Assembly: GCA_905233215.1 (NCBI GenBank)
Contig: CAJODC010000009.1
Span: 1-37,752 of the forward strand
DNA from: an uncultured Synergistales bacterium
Lineage (GTDB): Bacteria; Synergistota; Synergistia; Synergistales; Aminobacteriaceae
Length of the DNA: 37,752 nt
Direction of reading: 5' to 3'
Position numbers and translations under genes: made by a program
Notes under the pieces: generated by a model
What the model was told of the DNA's origin: nothing
Databases searched by the model: none
Seen by the model: only the letters and a program-made list of their open reading frames with translations
Part shown: piece after piece, positions 18,539-22,423 of the stretch
Layout of the letters: each line of letters opens with the position of its first letter
Numbering within the stretch: the first letter of the stretch is position 1

Positions 18539-20007
18539 CGGACGTTAAAATTATCGCTGACCTTCAGGAAATTGAACAGTCAAGAGTAGCGGTTATTGAG
18601 GACGGAAAGTTAGCCGAAATTTTCATCGAGTTCAATGACATTGACAACAGGAGCAGTATCAGAGAAGGCGATGTGTTCAAAGCGAAAGTCGAAACTCTCG
18701 TTCCTGCCATAAGCGCGGCGTTCGTGAGATTGTCATCGAAGAACGACAAGACACTGAAAGGCGCAGGCAACGCATTTATGTATACCCCTTCAAGCGTTAA
18801 GCCGGGACAGGAATTGATAGTACAGGTCGAGAAGACAGCACGCAAAAATAAAGCTCCAAGAGTAACTCCGCAGGTCTCGCTTCCGGGACGATGGCTGGTC
18901 TTAGTGCCAAACAGCAATGAAACCGGCGTGTCAAAAAGAATTGATGACTTGGCCGAACGCAAGCGTCTCAAGTCTCTAGCCGAAACATTCACGAAAGAGC
19001 TTGACACTCACGGAGTAATCATCAGGACAGCAGCGGAAGGAGTCAGCGAGGAACTTTTACGGAGGGATTTAGACTCGCTGCTTGAACTTTGGCGGAACAT
19101 TTCGGAAAAGGCCGACTCAAATTCATCTCCCTGTCTCTTGTATAGGGACATGGGGATTCTGGGACGTGTTCTACGTGATGAAGTCTGCGGAAAAGTCAGC
19201 CAGATCATCATCAATGAGCCTTGCGAATTTCAATCAGCAAAAAATTTCACCGATCGTTTTTACACCGATAAGCCCGATGTTGTTTTTTACGACAACACAA
19301 CGCCATTGTTCGATTACTTCGGAATTGAGGACGAAATCAGAAAGGCTCTTGAGCGAAAAGTCTGGCTGAAATCAGGAGCGTATTTAGTGATTGACCAGAC
19401 CGAAGCAATGACGGTCATTGACGTGAACACAGGGAAATTCACCAGTGCGCCCGACATGAGACATACTGTGCTGTCGACCAACAAAGAAGCCGCCGAAGAA
19501 ATAGCCCGTCAATTACGCTTGAGGGCAATCGGAGGAATCATCATCGTTGATTTTGTCGACATGGAACACGAAGACGACAAACACGAATTACTGAAACACT
19601 TTCAGAAACATTTGAATCACGACAGGTTGAAGGCAAAAATTTTCAGCCTGACTCAGCTTGGACTCGTTGAGCTGACACGGAAGAGAGAGCGTCCTGACTT
19701 GAGGAGCGTTTTGACTCGTAACTGTCCTGTCTGCGGTGATAACGGCTTTGTCGAACGTGAAGAAAATATTTCGCTCTCCGTGAAAAGATTCGTCAGAAAA
19801 ATAACGAAGGCTAACAATGCTGAAGCCTTCCTGATTCAGACTGACGAGGCTACAGCGTCATACATTCATGAATTTCTTGACGAGTGGGAAAAGGAATTTG
19901 GCAGAAAGATTTTTGTTGAAGGAGTGAAAAATTTTCAGCGGGGCAAATTCCGTCTTGAGTTTCAGGGAAATATAGAGACCGCAAAAAAACTAATGACAAT
20001 CAACTGA
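18535..20007 (+). CDS. rng: Ribonuclease G / E family endoribonuclease
   Basis: 490 aa, RNase G length, without the long C-terminal scaffold of RNase E. An S1-like RNA-binding domain occupies ~36-118. The DNase I-like catalytic domain holds Asp296 (VIDVNTGKF) and Asp339 (IIIVDFVDM), the two Mg2+-binding aspartates. The Zn-link cysteines are C397 and C400 (CPVCGDNG). It cleaves single-stranded AU-rich RNA, typically 5'-monophosphate-stimulated, in rRNA maturation and mRNA decay. The ATG overlaps the DUF2344 stop (ATGA), indicating translational coupling. Confidence 0.95.
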   Translation: MTDVKIIADLQEIEQSRVAVIEDGKLAEIFIEFNDIDNRSSIREGDVFKAKVETLVPAISAAFVRLSSKNDKTLKGAGNAFMYTPSSVKPGQELIVQVEKTARKNKAPRVTPQVSLPGRWLVLVPNSNETGVSKRIDDLAERKRLKSLAETFTKELDTHGVIIRTAAEGVSEELLRRDLDSLLELWRNISEKADSNSSPCLLYRDMGILGRVLRDEVCGKVSQIIINEPCEFQSAKNFTDRFYTDKPDVVFYDNTTPLFDYFGIEDEIRKALERKVWLKSGAYLVIDQTEAMTVIDVNTGKFTSAPDMRHTVLSTNKEAAEEIARQLRLRAIGGIIIVDFVDMEHEDDKHELLKHFQKHLNHDRLKAKIFSLTQLGLVELTRKRERPDLRSVLTRNCPVCGDNGFVEREENISLSVKRFVRKITKANNAEAFLIQTDEATASYIHEFLDEWEKEFGRKIFVEGVKNFQRGKFRLEFQGNIETAKKLMTIN

Positions 20008-20022
20008 CAATTCCGTTATAAT
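19993..20022 (+). promoter_or_regulatory. Sigma-70-type promoter of the binding-protein/permease fusion
   Basis: ATGACA (19993-19998) and TATAAT (20017-20022) with an 18-bp spacer, the best -35/-10 pair in the window, overlapping the rng 3' end. Start is expected near 20029, followed by GGGAGGT (20048-20054) before the GTG start at 20064. Confidence 0.65.
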
Positions 20023-20063
20023 ATCGACAATCCAATAAAATTTTCTCGGGAGGTAAAATTTCA

Positions 20064-22373
20064 GTGAAACGTTTTGCATTAGTATTACTCGCTGCACTTC
20101 TCGCGCTATCGTTGTGCGGTTCATGCTTTGCTGCTGACGGCTCGTCAAGCTGGAAGTTCGACCGCAAAATTGTCATCGTCTGTCCTTGGGGCGAAGGAGG
20201 CGGAGCAGACTCGACTCTCCGTGCGTTGATTCCTCTGCTGAAAGAGGCAACCGGTCAGTCAGTCGAAGTCGTCAACATCACGGGCGGAGGCGGTGTGAAC
20301 GGTGCATCATTCACGCGTGAACAGCCTGCTGACGGCTACACGTTCCTGCTTGGGACTCAGAGCCTTTTCGCAATGGACATTCAGGGCGCAATGCCGTTCA
20401 AGTTCAAGGACGAATTTGTACCAGTAGCAAGACTCGTCAACGCAATCAACGTCATCGCCGCTTCACACAGGGCAATGGAGGAACGAGGCTACAGCAATTT
20501 CACGGAGTTCAGAGACTTCGTGAAGAGTCACCCCTCAAGCGTGAGTGTCGGTATGCTCACAAGCACAGGCGTTGACGGAATATCAATGCGTCAGGCTCTC
20601 GAAGGTCTCAGCGTCCTTGAAGTCTCTTACCCTTCAGGAGCAGGAATGAATCTCGCTCTCAAAGAAGGCCAGATCGACATCATGATTACCGGTACTGATG
20701 AGATTTCCGACCTCATAGCAGCCGGAGACATTACGCCGCTTCTTGTTCTGGCAAAGAACCCGATGAGACGTTATCCCAACGTTCAGGCAGCAGGCGAAAT
20801 CGGTGTCAACGCATTCTTAGGGCCTGAGAGAGGAATCTTCGCCAAGAAAGGAACTCCTCAGGAAGCAATCGACGCTATGTCGAAAGCCATCGAGGAAGCA
20901 ACGAAGACTGAAGCGTGGAAAGAATTTCTTGAACGTGGCGGTTATGACGAGAGACCCGGATTCGCTTCGGCTGCTGACTATCAGAAGATCGAAGATGAAG
21001 AGTACAAATCCTTCACCGACATGTTGAAGCCCGCAAAAGCCTCCGACAAGAAAGCCGCTTCCGCACCGTCAACAAAATTAGCGATAATCGGCTTCGTTAT
21101 GGTGTTGATATTGATCATCTGCCTGATCAAGAAAATTGTCATTCCTCCTGTAGCGTTCATACTTCTTCCGACAATAGCGGCACTGGTGGCAGGATTTGAC
21201 CCTATGGCCGTCAACAAGTTCGCGGCTTCAGGCATCAGCAAAATGGTCTCAACCGTTTCGCTGTTCGTGTTCTCAATTTCTTTCTTCTCACTGATGAGCG
21301 AGCAGGGAGTTTTTGACCCTGTAGTAAACTTCCTCATCAAGAAGGCCGGAACTAATGTAACGCTTGTTCTTCTCGCAACGGCTGCTGTCGGTATCATCGG
21401 ACATCTTGACGGCTCAGGAGCAACAACATTCATCATCACGATAACGGCAATGCTCCCGATGTTCAAGAAGCTCAAAATGGACAATAGAGCGTTGATGCTT
21501 CTTGTCTGCGTTGCTATCGGAGTCATGAACGTCTGCCCTTGGGGAGGCCCTACGATAAGAGCCGCTACAGTTCTTGAGACAGACCCGAATAACCTGTGGC
21601 ACAGACTGCTTCCGGTACAGGGCGCAATGCTTGTCATAACGTTTGCAGTAGCGTTCATTTTGAGCGGCGTTCAGAAGAGAAGAATTGCAAAGCTCGGACT
21701 CACTGCTGACGATTCCGCCGAAGAATCAGCAAGTCAGGCTAAAGCGTCAACTCTTCCCACTTGGATTCGCTGGTTCAACTTCATTCTCGTCATCGCTGTC
21801 ATCTGCGCTTTGATGTTCGGAAGTTTCAACCCTGCTTACGTGTTCATGCTTGCTCTTGCTGTTTCGCTGCCTCTGAACATTAAGGTACTGAAGGAACAGA
21901 ACTCGAAACTCAAGAACTACGGTGTCGCAGCAATGGCGATGGTCGTAACTCTTTTCTCGGCAGGAATTTTCACGGGCGTTCTCTCAGGAACAGGAATGCT
22001 CAACGCTATGGCCAGCGCAGTCGTAACGATAATTCCGCCTGACTTAGGCCGTTACACTCACTTCATCGTTGCTTGCTTCGCAGTGCCTTTGATTATGTGC
22101 TTGGGTACAGACTCGTTCTACTTCGGGCTTCTTCCTGTCGTTGTGGGAATAGCGACACAGTTCGGCGTGAACCCTATGGACGTTGCCTGCGTAATGCTTG
22201 TGGCTGAGAACGTTGGAGTCATGATTTCACCGTTAAGCCCGGCCATGTATCTTGGTCTCGGACTTCTTGAGATTGAAGTCGGCGAACACATCAAGTACTC
22301 GCTTCCGTGGATCTGGGGTATCAGTCTCATCTCTATTGCTGCCTGCATAGTGCTTGGAGTTACTCCGCTGTAA
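20064..22373 (+). CDS. Fusion of a TctC/Bug-type solute-binding protein with a CitMHS-type permease
   Basis: 769 aa. Residues 1-24 are a signal peptide (cleavage after CFA). Residues ~30-320 match the periplasmic TctC/Bug fold of tripartite tricarboxylate transporters (IVCPWGEGGGADSTLRAL; NITGGGGVNGA; PADGYTFLLGT). After a Lys/Ala linker (~323-338), residues ~340-769 are a multi-TM permease with CitMHS hallmarks: GHLDGSGATTF (446-456) and CPWGGPTIRAATVL (491-504). CitMHS proteins import metal-citrate complexes with protons, normally without a binding protein, while TctC normally serves TctA/TctB. No tctA or tctB is nearby. A di- or tricarboxylate (possibly metal-complexed) is the likely substrate (inference). 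GTG start, GGGAGGT 9 nt upstream. The reading frame is continuous and a terminator follows. Confidence 0.88.
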   Translation: MKRFALVLLAALLALSLCGSCFAADGSSSWKFDRKIVIVCPWGEGGGADSTLRALIPLLKEATGQSVEVVNITGGGGVNGASFTREQPADGYTFLLGTQSLFAMDIQGAMPFKFKDEFVPVARLVNAINVIAASHRAMEERGYSNFTEFRDFVKSHPSSVSVGMLTSTGVDGISMRQALEGLSVLEVSYPSGAGMNLALKEGQIDIMITGTDEISDLIAAGDITPLLVLAKNPMRRYPNVQAAGEIGVNAFLGPERGIFAKKGTPQEAIDAMSKAIEEATKTEAWKEFLERGGYDERPGFASAADYQKIEDEEYKSFTDMLKPAKASDKKAASAPSTKLAIIGFVMVLILIICLIKKIVIPPVAFILLPTIAALVAGFDPMAVNKFAASGISKMVSTVSLFVFSISFFSLMSEQGVFDPVVNFLIKKAGTNVTLVLLATAAVGIIGHLDGSGATTFIITITAMLPMFKKLKMDNRALMLLVCVAIGVMNVCPWGGPTIRAATVLETDPNNLWHRLLPVQGAMLVITFAVAFILSGVQKRRIAKLGLTADDSAEESASQAKASTLPTWIRWFNFILVIAVICALMFGSFNPAYVFMLALAVSLPLNIKVLKEQNSKLKNYGVAAMAMVVTLFSAGIFTGVLSGTGMLNAMASAVVTIIPPDLGRYTHFIVACFAVPLIMCLGTDSFYFGLLPVVVGIATQFGVNPMDVACVMLVAENVGVMISPLSPAMYLGLGLLEIEVGEHIKYSLPWIWGISLISIAACIVLGVTPL

Positions 22374-22387
22374 ACACAAAAAATTTC

Positions 22388-22423
22388 TCTCCTCCTCTAA
22401 CGTTAAGGGGAGGAGATTTTTTT
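22388..22423. terminator. Bidirectional terminator between the transporter fusion and rlmB
   Basis: TCTCCTCCTC (22388-22397) pairs with GGGGAGGAGA (22407-22416), with a palindromic TAACGTTA in the loop, then seven T. An A-run on the left gives the minus-strand T-tract, serving the convergent rlmB. Confidence 0.85.

Follow-up and report, generated by a model that had tools for sequence, protein, structure and literature searches.

To our knowledge, the use of a soluble solute-binding protein (SBP) by secondary transporters was known before 2025 only in the TRAP and TTT families, and ordinary symporters of the CitMHS family operate without a binding protein. A new class of SBP-dependent secondary transporter, TAXI-GltS (BP0403/BP0402), was described in Bordetella pertussis in 2025 (PMC12344293). 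Fusions of its two components are rare and mostly found in Lachnospiraceae (14 of about 10,000 GltS entries), and its authors proposed that elevator mechanics permit the use of an SBP, an idea that further classes would test (PMC12344293). That paper mentions neither CitMHS nor TctC. Here we describe a candidate for such a further class, a gene that joins a TctC-type SBP to a CitMHS permease, located in a 37,752-nucleotide stretch of DNA (the window) from an uncultured Synergistales bacterium. A literature search with little reach into subscription journals and preprints returned no published description of a TctC-CitMHS fusion.

The fusion resembles TAXI-GltS in that the SBP of a tripartite system, separate or N-terminally fused, serves an elevator-type permease of a family that normally does without one, and in that the fusion is uncommon and largely limited to a single bacterial group. 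The partners differ, however, being a TAXI SBP and the glutamate permease GltS in one case and a TctC SBP and a CitMHS permease, probably for citrate, in the other. With the TctCBA system (TC 2.A.80) the fusion shares the SBP family (PF03401), a sister SBP with about 60% identity that the same genomes encode, and probably the ligand, but it has neither of the membrane partners, TctA and TctB, that a TTT system requires, and its permease belongs to another family. Like CitM and CitH of Bacillus subtilis, metal-citrate/H+ symporters of the CitMHS family (TC 2.A.11), the fused permease is a full-length member of TIGR00784. The known members are nevertheless free proteins that work without a binding protein, and the fused permease is about 39% identical to its closest free relatives and forms a long, isolated branch in the tree. 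TRAP transporters (DctPQM, SiaPQM; TC 2.A.56) carry out the kind of SBP-dependent secondary transport that we propose for the fusion, with the elevator fold of the ion transporter superfamily, which is predicted here, and fusions are known among them, including rare P-Q fusions (PMC8276074). Their SBPs, however, belong to an unrelated family, the small Q subunit is absent from the fusion, and the permease is CitMHS rather than DctM (the TRAP family model TIGR00786 dctM gave the fused protein 26 bits against a cut-off of 268). Given these differences in the families on both sides, the fusion is not a member of TTT, TRAP or TAXI-GltS.

The fused gene (Table 1) starts with a GTG codon and contains no internal stops. 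The initial annotation had described one continuous frame encoding a signal peptide, a TctC/Bug domain and a permease, and this description holds, since the frame is intact, both domains were matched, and the two motifs quoted for it (GHLDGSGATTF and CPWGGPTIRAATVL) are found in the translation. The promoter-like site and the terminator-like hairpin that flank the gene fit a single-gene transcript; the consensus scan returned 4 promoter-like sites against 2.6 expected in shuffles. The N-terminus is hydrophobic over residues 1-28, which AlphaFold models as a helix (2-19) followed by disorder (21-28), and alignment revealed the same signal-peptide pattern in homologues. SPase I is likely to cleave between CFA and AD.

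Table 1. Features of the fused gene and its flanks, in window coordinates.
Feature	Position	Strand	Basis
Promoter-like site ATGACA-18-TATAAT, 11/12 matches	19993..20022	+	Consensus match only
Probable ribosome-binding site GGGAGG, 9-14 nt 5' of GTG	20050..20055 (approximate to 2 nt)	+	Read directly from sequence
Fused gene, TctC-type SBP and CitMHS permease, 769 aa	20064..22373	+	Pfam/NCBIfam matches; single frame kept across genus
Signal peptide, residues 1-~24	20064..20135	+	Hydrophobic segment and homologue pattern
TctC/Bug solute-binding domain, residues 30-322	20151..21029	+	PF03401; Foldseek; nearest solved chains
Lys/Ala-rich linker, residues 323-336	21030..21071	+	pLDDT <50; composition kept in homologues
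CitMHS permease, ion transporter superfamily elevator fold (predicted), residues 337-769	21072..22370	+	TIGR00784; Foldseek
Intrinsic-terminator-like hairpin, 11-pair stem, then T7	22388..22416	+	Consensus match only; immediately 3' of stop codon

Profile searches assigned each half to a family. The N-terminal half matched PF03401 (TctC) over residues 59-316 (E 3.7e-21; 76.3 bits against a cut-off of 27), has the TctC fold, and finds its closest solved chains among TctC/Bug proteins. The C-terminal half matched PF03600 (CitMHS) over residues 355-714 (E 1.9e-19) and TIGR00784 (citMHS, citrate:proton symporter) over residues 339-766, covering profile positions 2-427 of 431 and scoring 274.3 bits in the whole protein and 276.6 bits as a half alone, both above the curated cut-off of 259.7. 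The Pfam and NCBIfam searches of the fused protein did not match TctA, and when the profile of the permease half was compared with that of TctA proteins from the same bacteria, hhalign gave a probability of 0.2%. These results rule out TctA as the identity of the C-terminal half and bear out the CitMHS assignment of the initial annotation. The usual architecture of the family, a free permease without an SBP, is replaced by a covalent junction in the window protein and in its fused homologues.

An AlphaFold2 model of the fused protein built from 34 sequences had a mean pLDDT of 84 and a pTM of 0.60, so that the relative placement of the two domains is uncertain in it; a second model, from fused sequences only, had a mean pLDDT of 54, reflecting too little sequence diversity to be informative on docking. 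When the PDB was searched with Foldseek, the first matches were the TctC proteins 2dvz, MatC with malate, BugD and TphC (best TM 0.87 on target), followed by the elevator transporters VcINDY (TM 0.73 on target), IseQM and SiaQM. The permease half, for which phmmer found no solved structure matching by sequence, is thus predicted to adopt a VcINDY/TRAP-type elevator fold. The physical arrangement of an SBP-dependent secondary transporter, an SBP linked to a permease of predicted elevator fold, is therefore present within a single chain.

The short Lys/Ala-rich linker of the initial annotation was also recovered. Residues 323-335 are disordered in the AlphaFold2 model (pLDDT <50), and the Lys/Ala make-up is kept, with slightly variable length, in every aligned fused homologue. 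The first transmembrane segment of the permease begins near residue 337, and Lys-Lys comes after it. Because the signal peptide puts the SBP outside, because Lys-Lys follows this segment, and because the N-terminus of the DctM permease is periplasmic (PMC5812351), the permease is predicted to have its N-terminus outside. Fusion of an SBP to that end would consequently be geometrically natural.

The taxonomic distribution of the fusion revealed that the fused frame is present in 32 of the 43 genomes of the genus, with open frames of 752-845 aa and one further frame truncated at the end of its contig, and that full-length copies in the set of relatives are 73-84% identical to the window protein. 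This recurrence argues that the fusion is neither a chance event nor a misassembly. The genomes concerned are assigned to uncultured Synergistaceae and Fretibacterium; goats, deer, sheep and reindeer are the source of many of them. That assembly or gene calling joined two adjacent genes has a single point in its favor, namely that the source is apparently a metagenome-assembled genome; since the same in-frame junction and a conserved linker occur in the 32 genomes, which come from different animals, projects and assemblies, we give this possibility practically no weight and take the fusion to be real. Both halves are under purifying selection, with median pairwise dN/dS of about 0.11 for the SBP half, the faster-evolving of the two, and 0.06 for the permease half, values that are rough because synonymous sites are near saturation.

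Among 188 Synergistota genomes the fusion was restricted to this one genus, and every CitMHS protein over the cut-off outside it was free and about 440-480 aa long. None of 72,556 plasmid records covered 80% of the fused query, and a species-genome scan outside Synergistota reached close relatives only. A Haladaptatus plasmid match (H1) seemed to extend into the SBP part, but the annotated gene is an ordinary free CitMHS, and long open frames around SBPs in two genomes (G049, G057) proved to be GC-rich read-through rather than fusions. In one genome (G016) the fused gene occurs twice, on contigs C101 and C17, and each copy is 83% identical to that of the window.

Phylogenetic trees placed all fused N-terminal halves in one clade (SH-aLRT 100) and all fused C-terminal halves in another (96), a pattern that fits one fusion event. 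The closest relative of the fused SBPs (support 92) is an SBP from genome G003, the gene of which stands 15 nt from a separate CitMHS gene in the order CitMHS-SBP. On a Roseomonas mucosa plasmid a TctC-type SBP gene likewise lies directly 5' of a CitMHS gene. These pairs bring together the same two families as adjoining genes, but encode them as separate polypeptides; the unfused pair of G003 supports a functional linkage of the two families. In B. subtilis, the TctC-type SBP gene yflP lies near citM. Within the genus, the N-terminal half of the window protein groups with the copies of loci L035 and L036 and the C-terminal half with those of L041, L040 and L045 (up to 91% identity), and this difference in grouping suggests recombination or gene conversion between species inside the fused gene.

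The neighbors of the fusion offered no clue to its function: they vary among 27 loci from public contigs and are often amino-acid-biosynthesis-like, and those in the window appear by eye to be RNase G/E-like, DUF2344-like and rRNA-methyltransferase-like genes. In the same 27 loci no tctB or tctA adjoined the fusion as a partner gene and no citDEF adjoined it, so that the fusion does not form part of a citrate operon. Membership in CitMHS does not by itself indicate citrate, since many relatives in other bacteria adjoin AtuA or CoA-transferase genes and not citrate genes.

Several patterns nevertheless favor citrate. The closest free SBPs, about 58-63% identical to the fused SBP, are the TctC proteins of tctC-tctB-tctA operons, and among the 24 genus loci examined about 11 have citD or citDEF beside the tctCBA operon, while several others end at contig edges. 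The identity of these citrate-lyase genes was supported by citD passing TIGR01608 and by CitF of G117 passing TIGR01584; CitE had citE as its best match but remained below the cut-off. The fused SBPs and five tctCBA SBPs were compared at the 78 positions that are invariant within each set; 73 of these have the same residue in both sets, including those of CPWG-GGG-D, LGTQS and GML-T-G-D, which we take to correspond to the ligand loops of Bug proteins. Free CitMHS genes of the same family and order are found in a citE-citF-citMHS arrangement (G117) and beside citD (G129). Furthermore, eight genomes (G006, G011, G013, G014, G016, G019, G020 and G035) combine the fusion with citDEF or citF and have no tctCBA-type SBP; six of these genomes reach a completeness of at least 95%. 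Their cit genes stand without adjoining tct genes, the contig of G006 ending within the operon. Two genomes (G007, G034), which count against the citrate reading, have citF and neither the fusion nor a tctCBA-type SBP. The genome of the window itself encodes citDEF and the beta subunit of a Na+-pumping decarboxylase. Taken together, these patterns make citrate the favored substrate, though not a certain one, given the association of CitMHS with other catabolic genes elsewhere and the position of the fusion outside a citrate operon.

We consider it likely that the product of the gene is a secondary transporter of citrate or metal-citrate that depends on a binding protein and consists of a single polypeptide. 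Its signal peptide would direct the TctC domain at the N-terminus to the outside of the cytoplasmic membrane, where this domain would capture citrate or metal-citrate between its two lobes while a flexible linker of about 14-18 residues tethered it to the outward-facing N-terminus of the permease. Swinging on this linker, the SBP domain would dock on the outward-facing permease and release the ligand into it; the permease, probably a VcINDY-like dimer, would then move the ligand to the inside through an elevator-type step powered by H+ or Na+, and the imported citrate would feed citrate lyase and the Na+-pumping decarboxylase. Docking, hand-over, dimer, coupling ion, direction, exact substrate and affinity are features that we infer for the fused transporter. 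On balance we also lean towards the broader proposal that CitMHS is a further SBP-dependent family beside TRAP, TTT and TAXI-GltS, here as a one-protein, high-affinity citrate importer without a TctB/DctQ subunit, which would be a second independent case in which an elevator-type permease that does not belong to a tripartite family has recruited an SBP. If so, the fusion would offer a compact model of the hand-over of ligand from SBP to permease, since donor and permease are one polypeptide at 1:1 stoichiometry with no small subunit. It further suggests that little-known Synergistota of the gut scavenge citrate.

Other readings of the fused protein were weighed against this one. The permease could be fed by the SBP with a different tri- or dicarboxylate or a plant organic acid, as its long isolated branch, the AtuA and CoA-transferase neighbors of its relatives, the location outside a citrate operon, and the binding of malate, adipate-like acids or terephthalate by solved TctC relatives would all allow; we nevertheless hold this to be rather improbable, because the ligand loops agree with those of the citDEF-linked TctC and because the fusion is the sole SBP of this clade in the eight genomes with citDEF or citF. 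The SBP domain could also be an accessory, the CitMHS half transporting alone while the SBP merely raises the local substrate concentration or is dispensable. The independence of ordinary CitMHS proteins from SBPs and the faster evolution of the SBP half are in line with such a role, but we judge it unlikely in view of the clear purifying selection on the SBP, the retention of its putative ligand loops and the persistence of the fused form throughout the whole clade.

The SBP domain could, alternatively, serve chiefly as a citrate sensor, gating the permease or signaling rather than delivering substrate; a precedent is the TctC protein BctC of Bordetella, which is associated with BctDE, a two-component system (PMC5812351). 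Sensing nevertheless appears very improbable here, since no kinase or regulator gene was recognized as a conserved neighbor of the fusion in the 27 loci and the covalent link to the permease is more simply explained by delivery.

Other associations of SBPs with permeases were observed. In three loci (L148, 1498-4187, minus strand; L149, 104-2784, plus strand; L150, 3-2778, plus strand) DctQ-like and DctM (TRAP) genes come immediately after a TctC-type SBP gene, which gives the genus a second case of SBP and permease families being mixed. The genome of the window (G000) has the same arrangement on contig C64 (L071, 1121-3800, minus strand). There the SBP copy contains an in-frame TAG; the copies of G021 and G004 are intact. 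Citrate-type SBP relatives 46-48% identical to the fused SBP were found in L066 (3612-4805, minus strand), before tctCBA, and in L069 (3402-4577, minus strand), before citDEF without tctBA; both frames have two consecutive signal-peptide-like starts, as if the 5' end had been duplicated. Finally, a run of genes on a Sphingomonas plasmid (L143, 1242-5296), comprising two-component genes and genes for a phosphonate-like SBP, a porin and a CitMHS protein, may represent another CitMHS system linked to an SBP.
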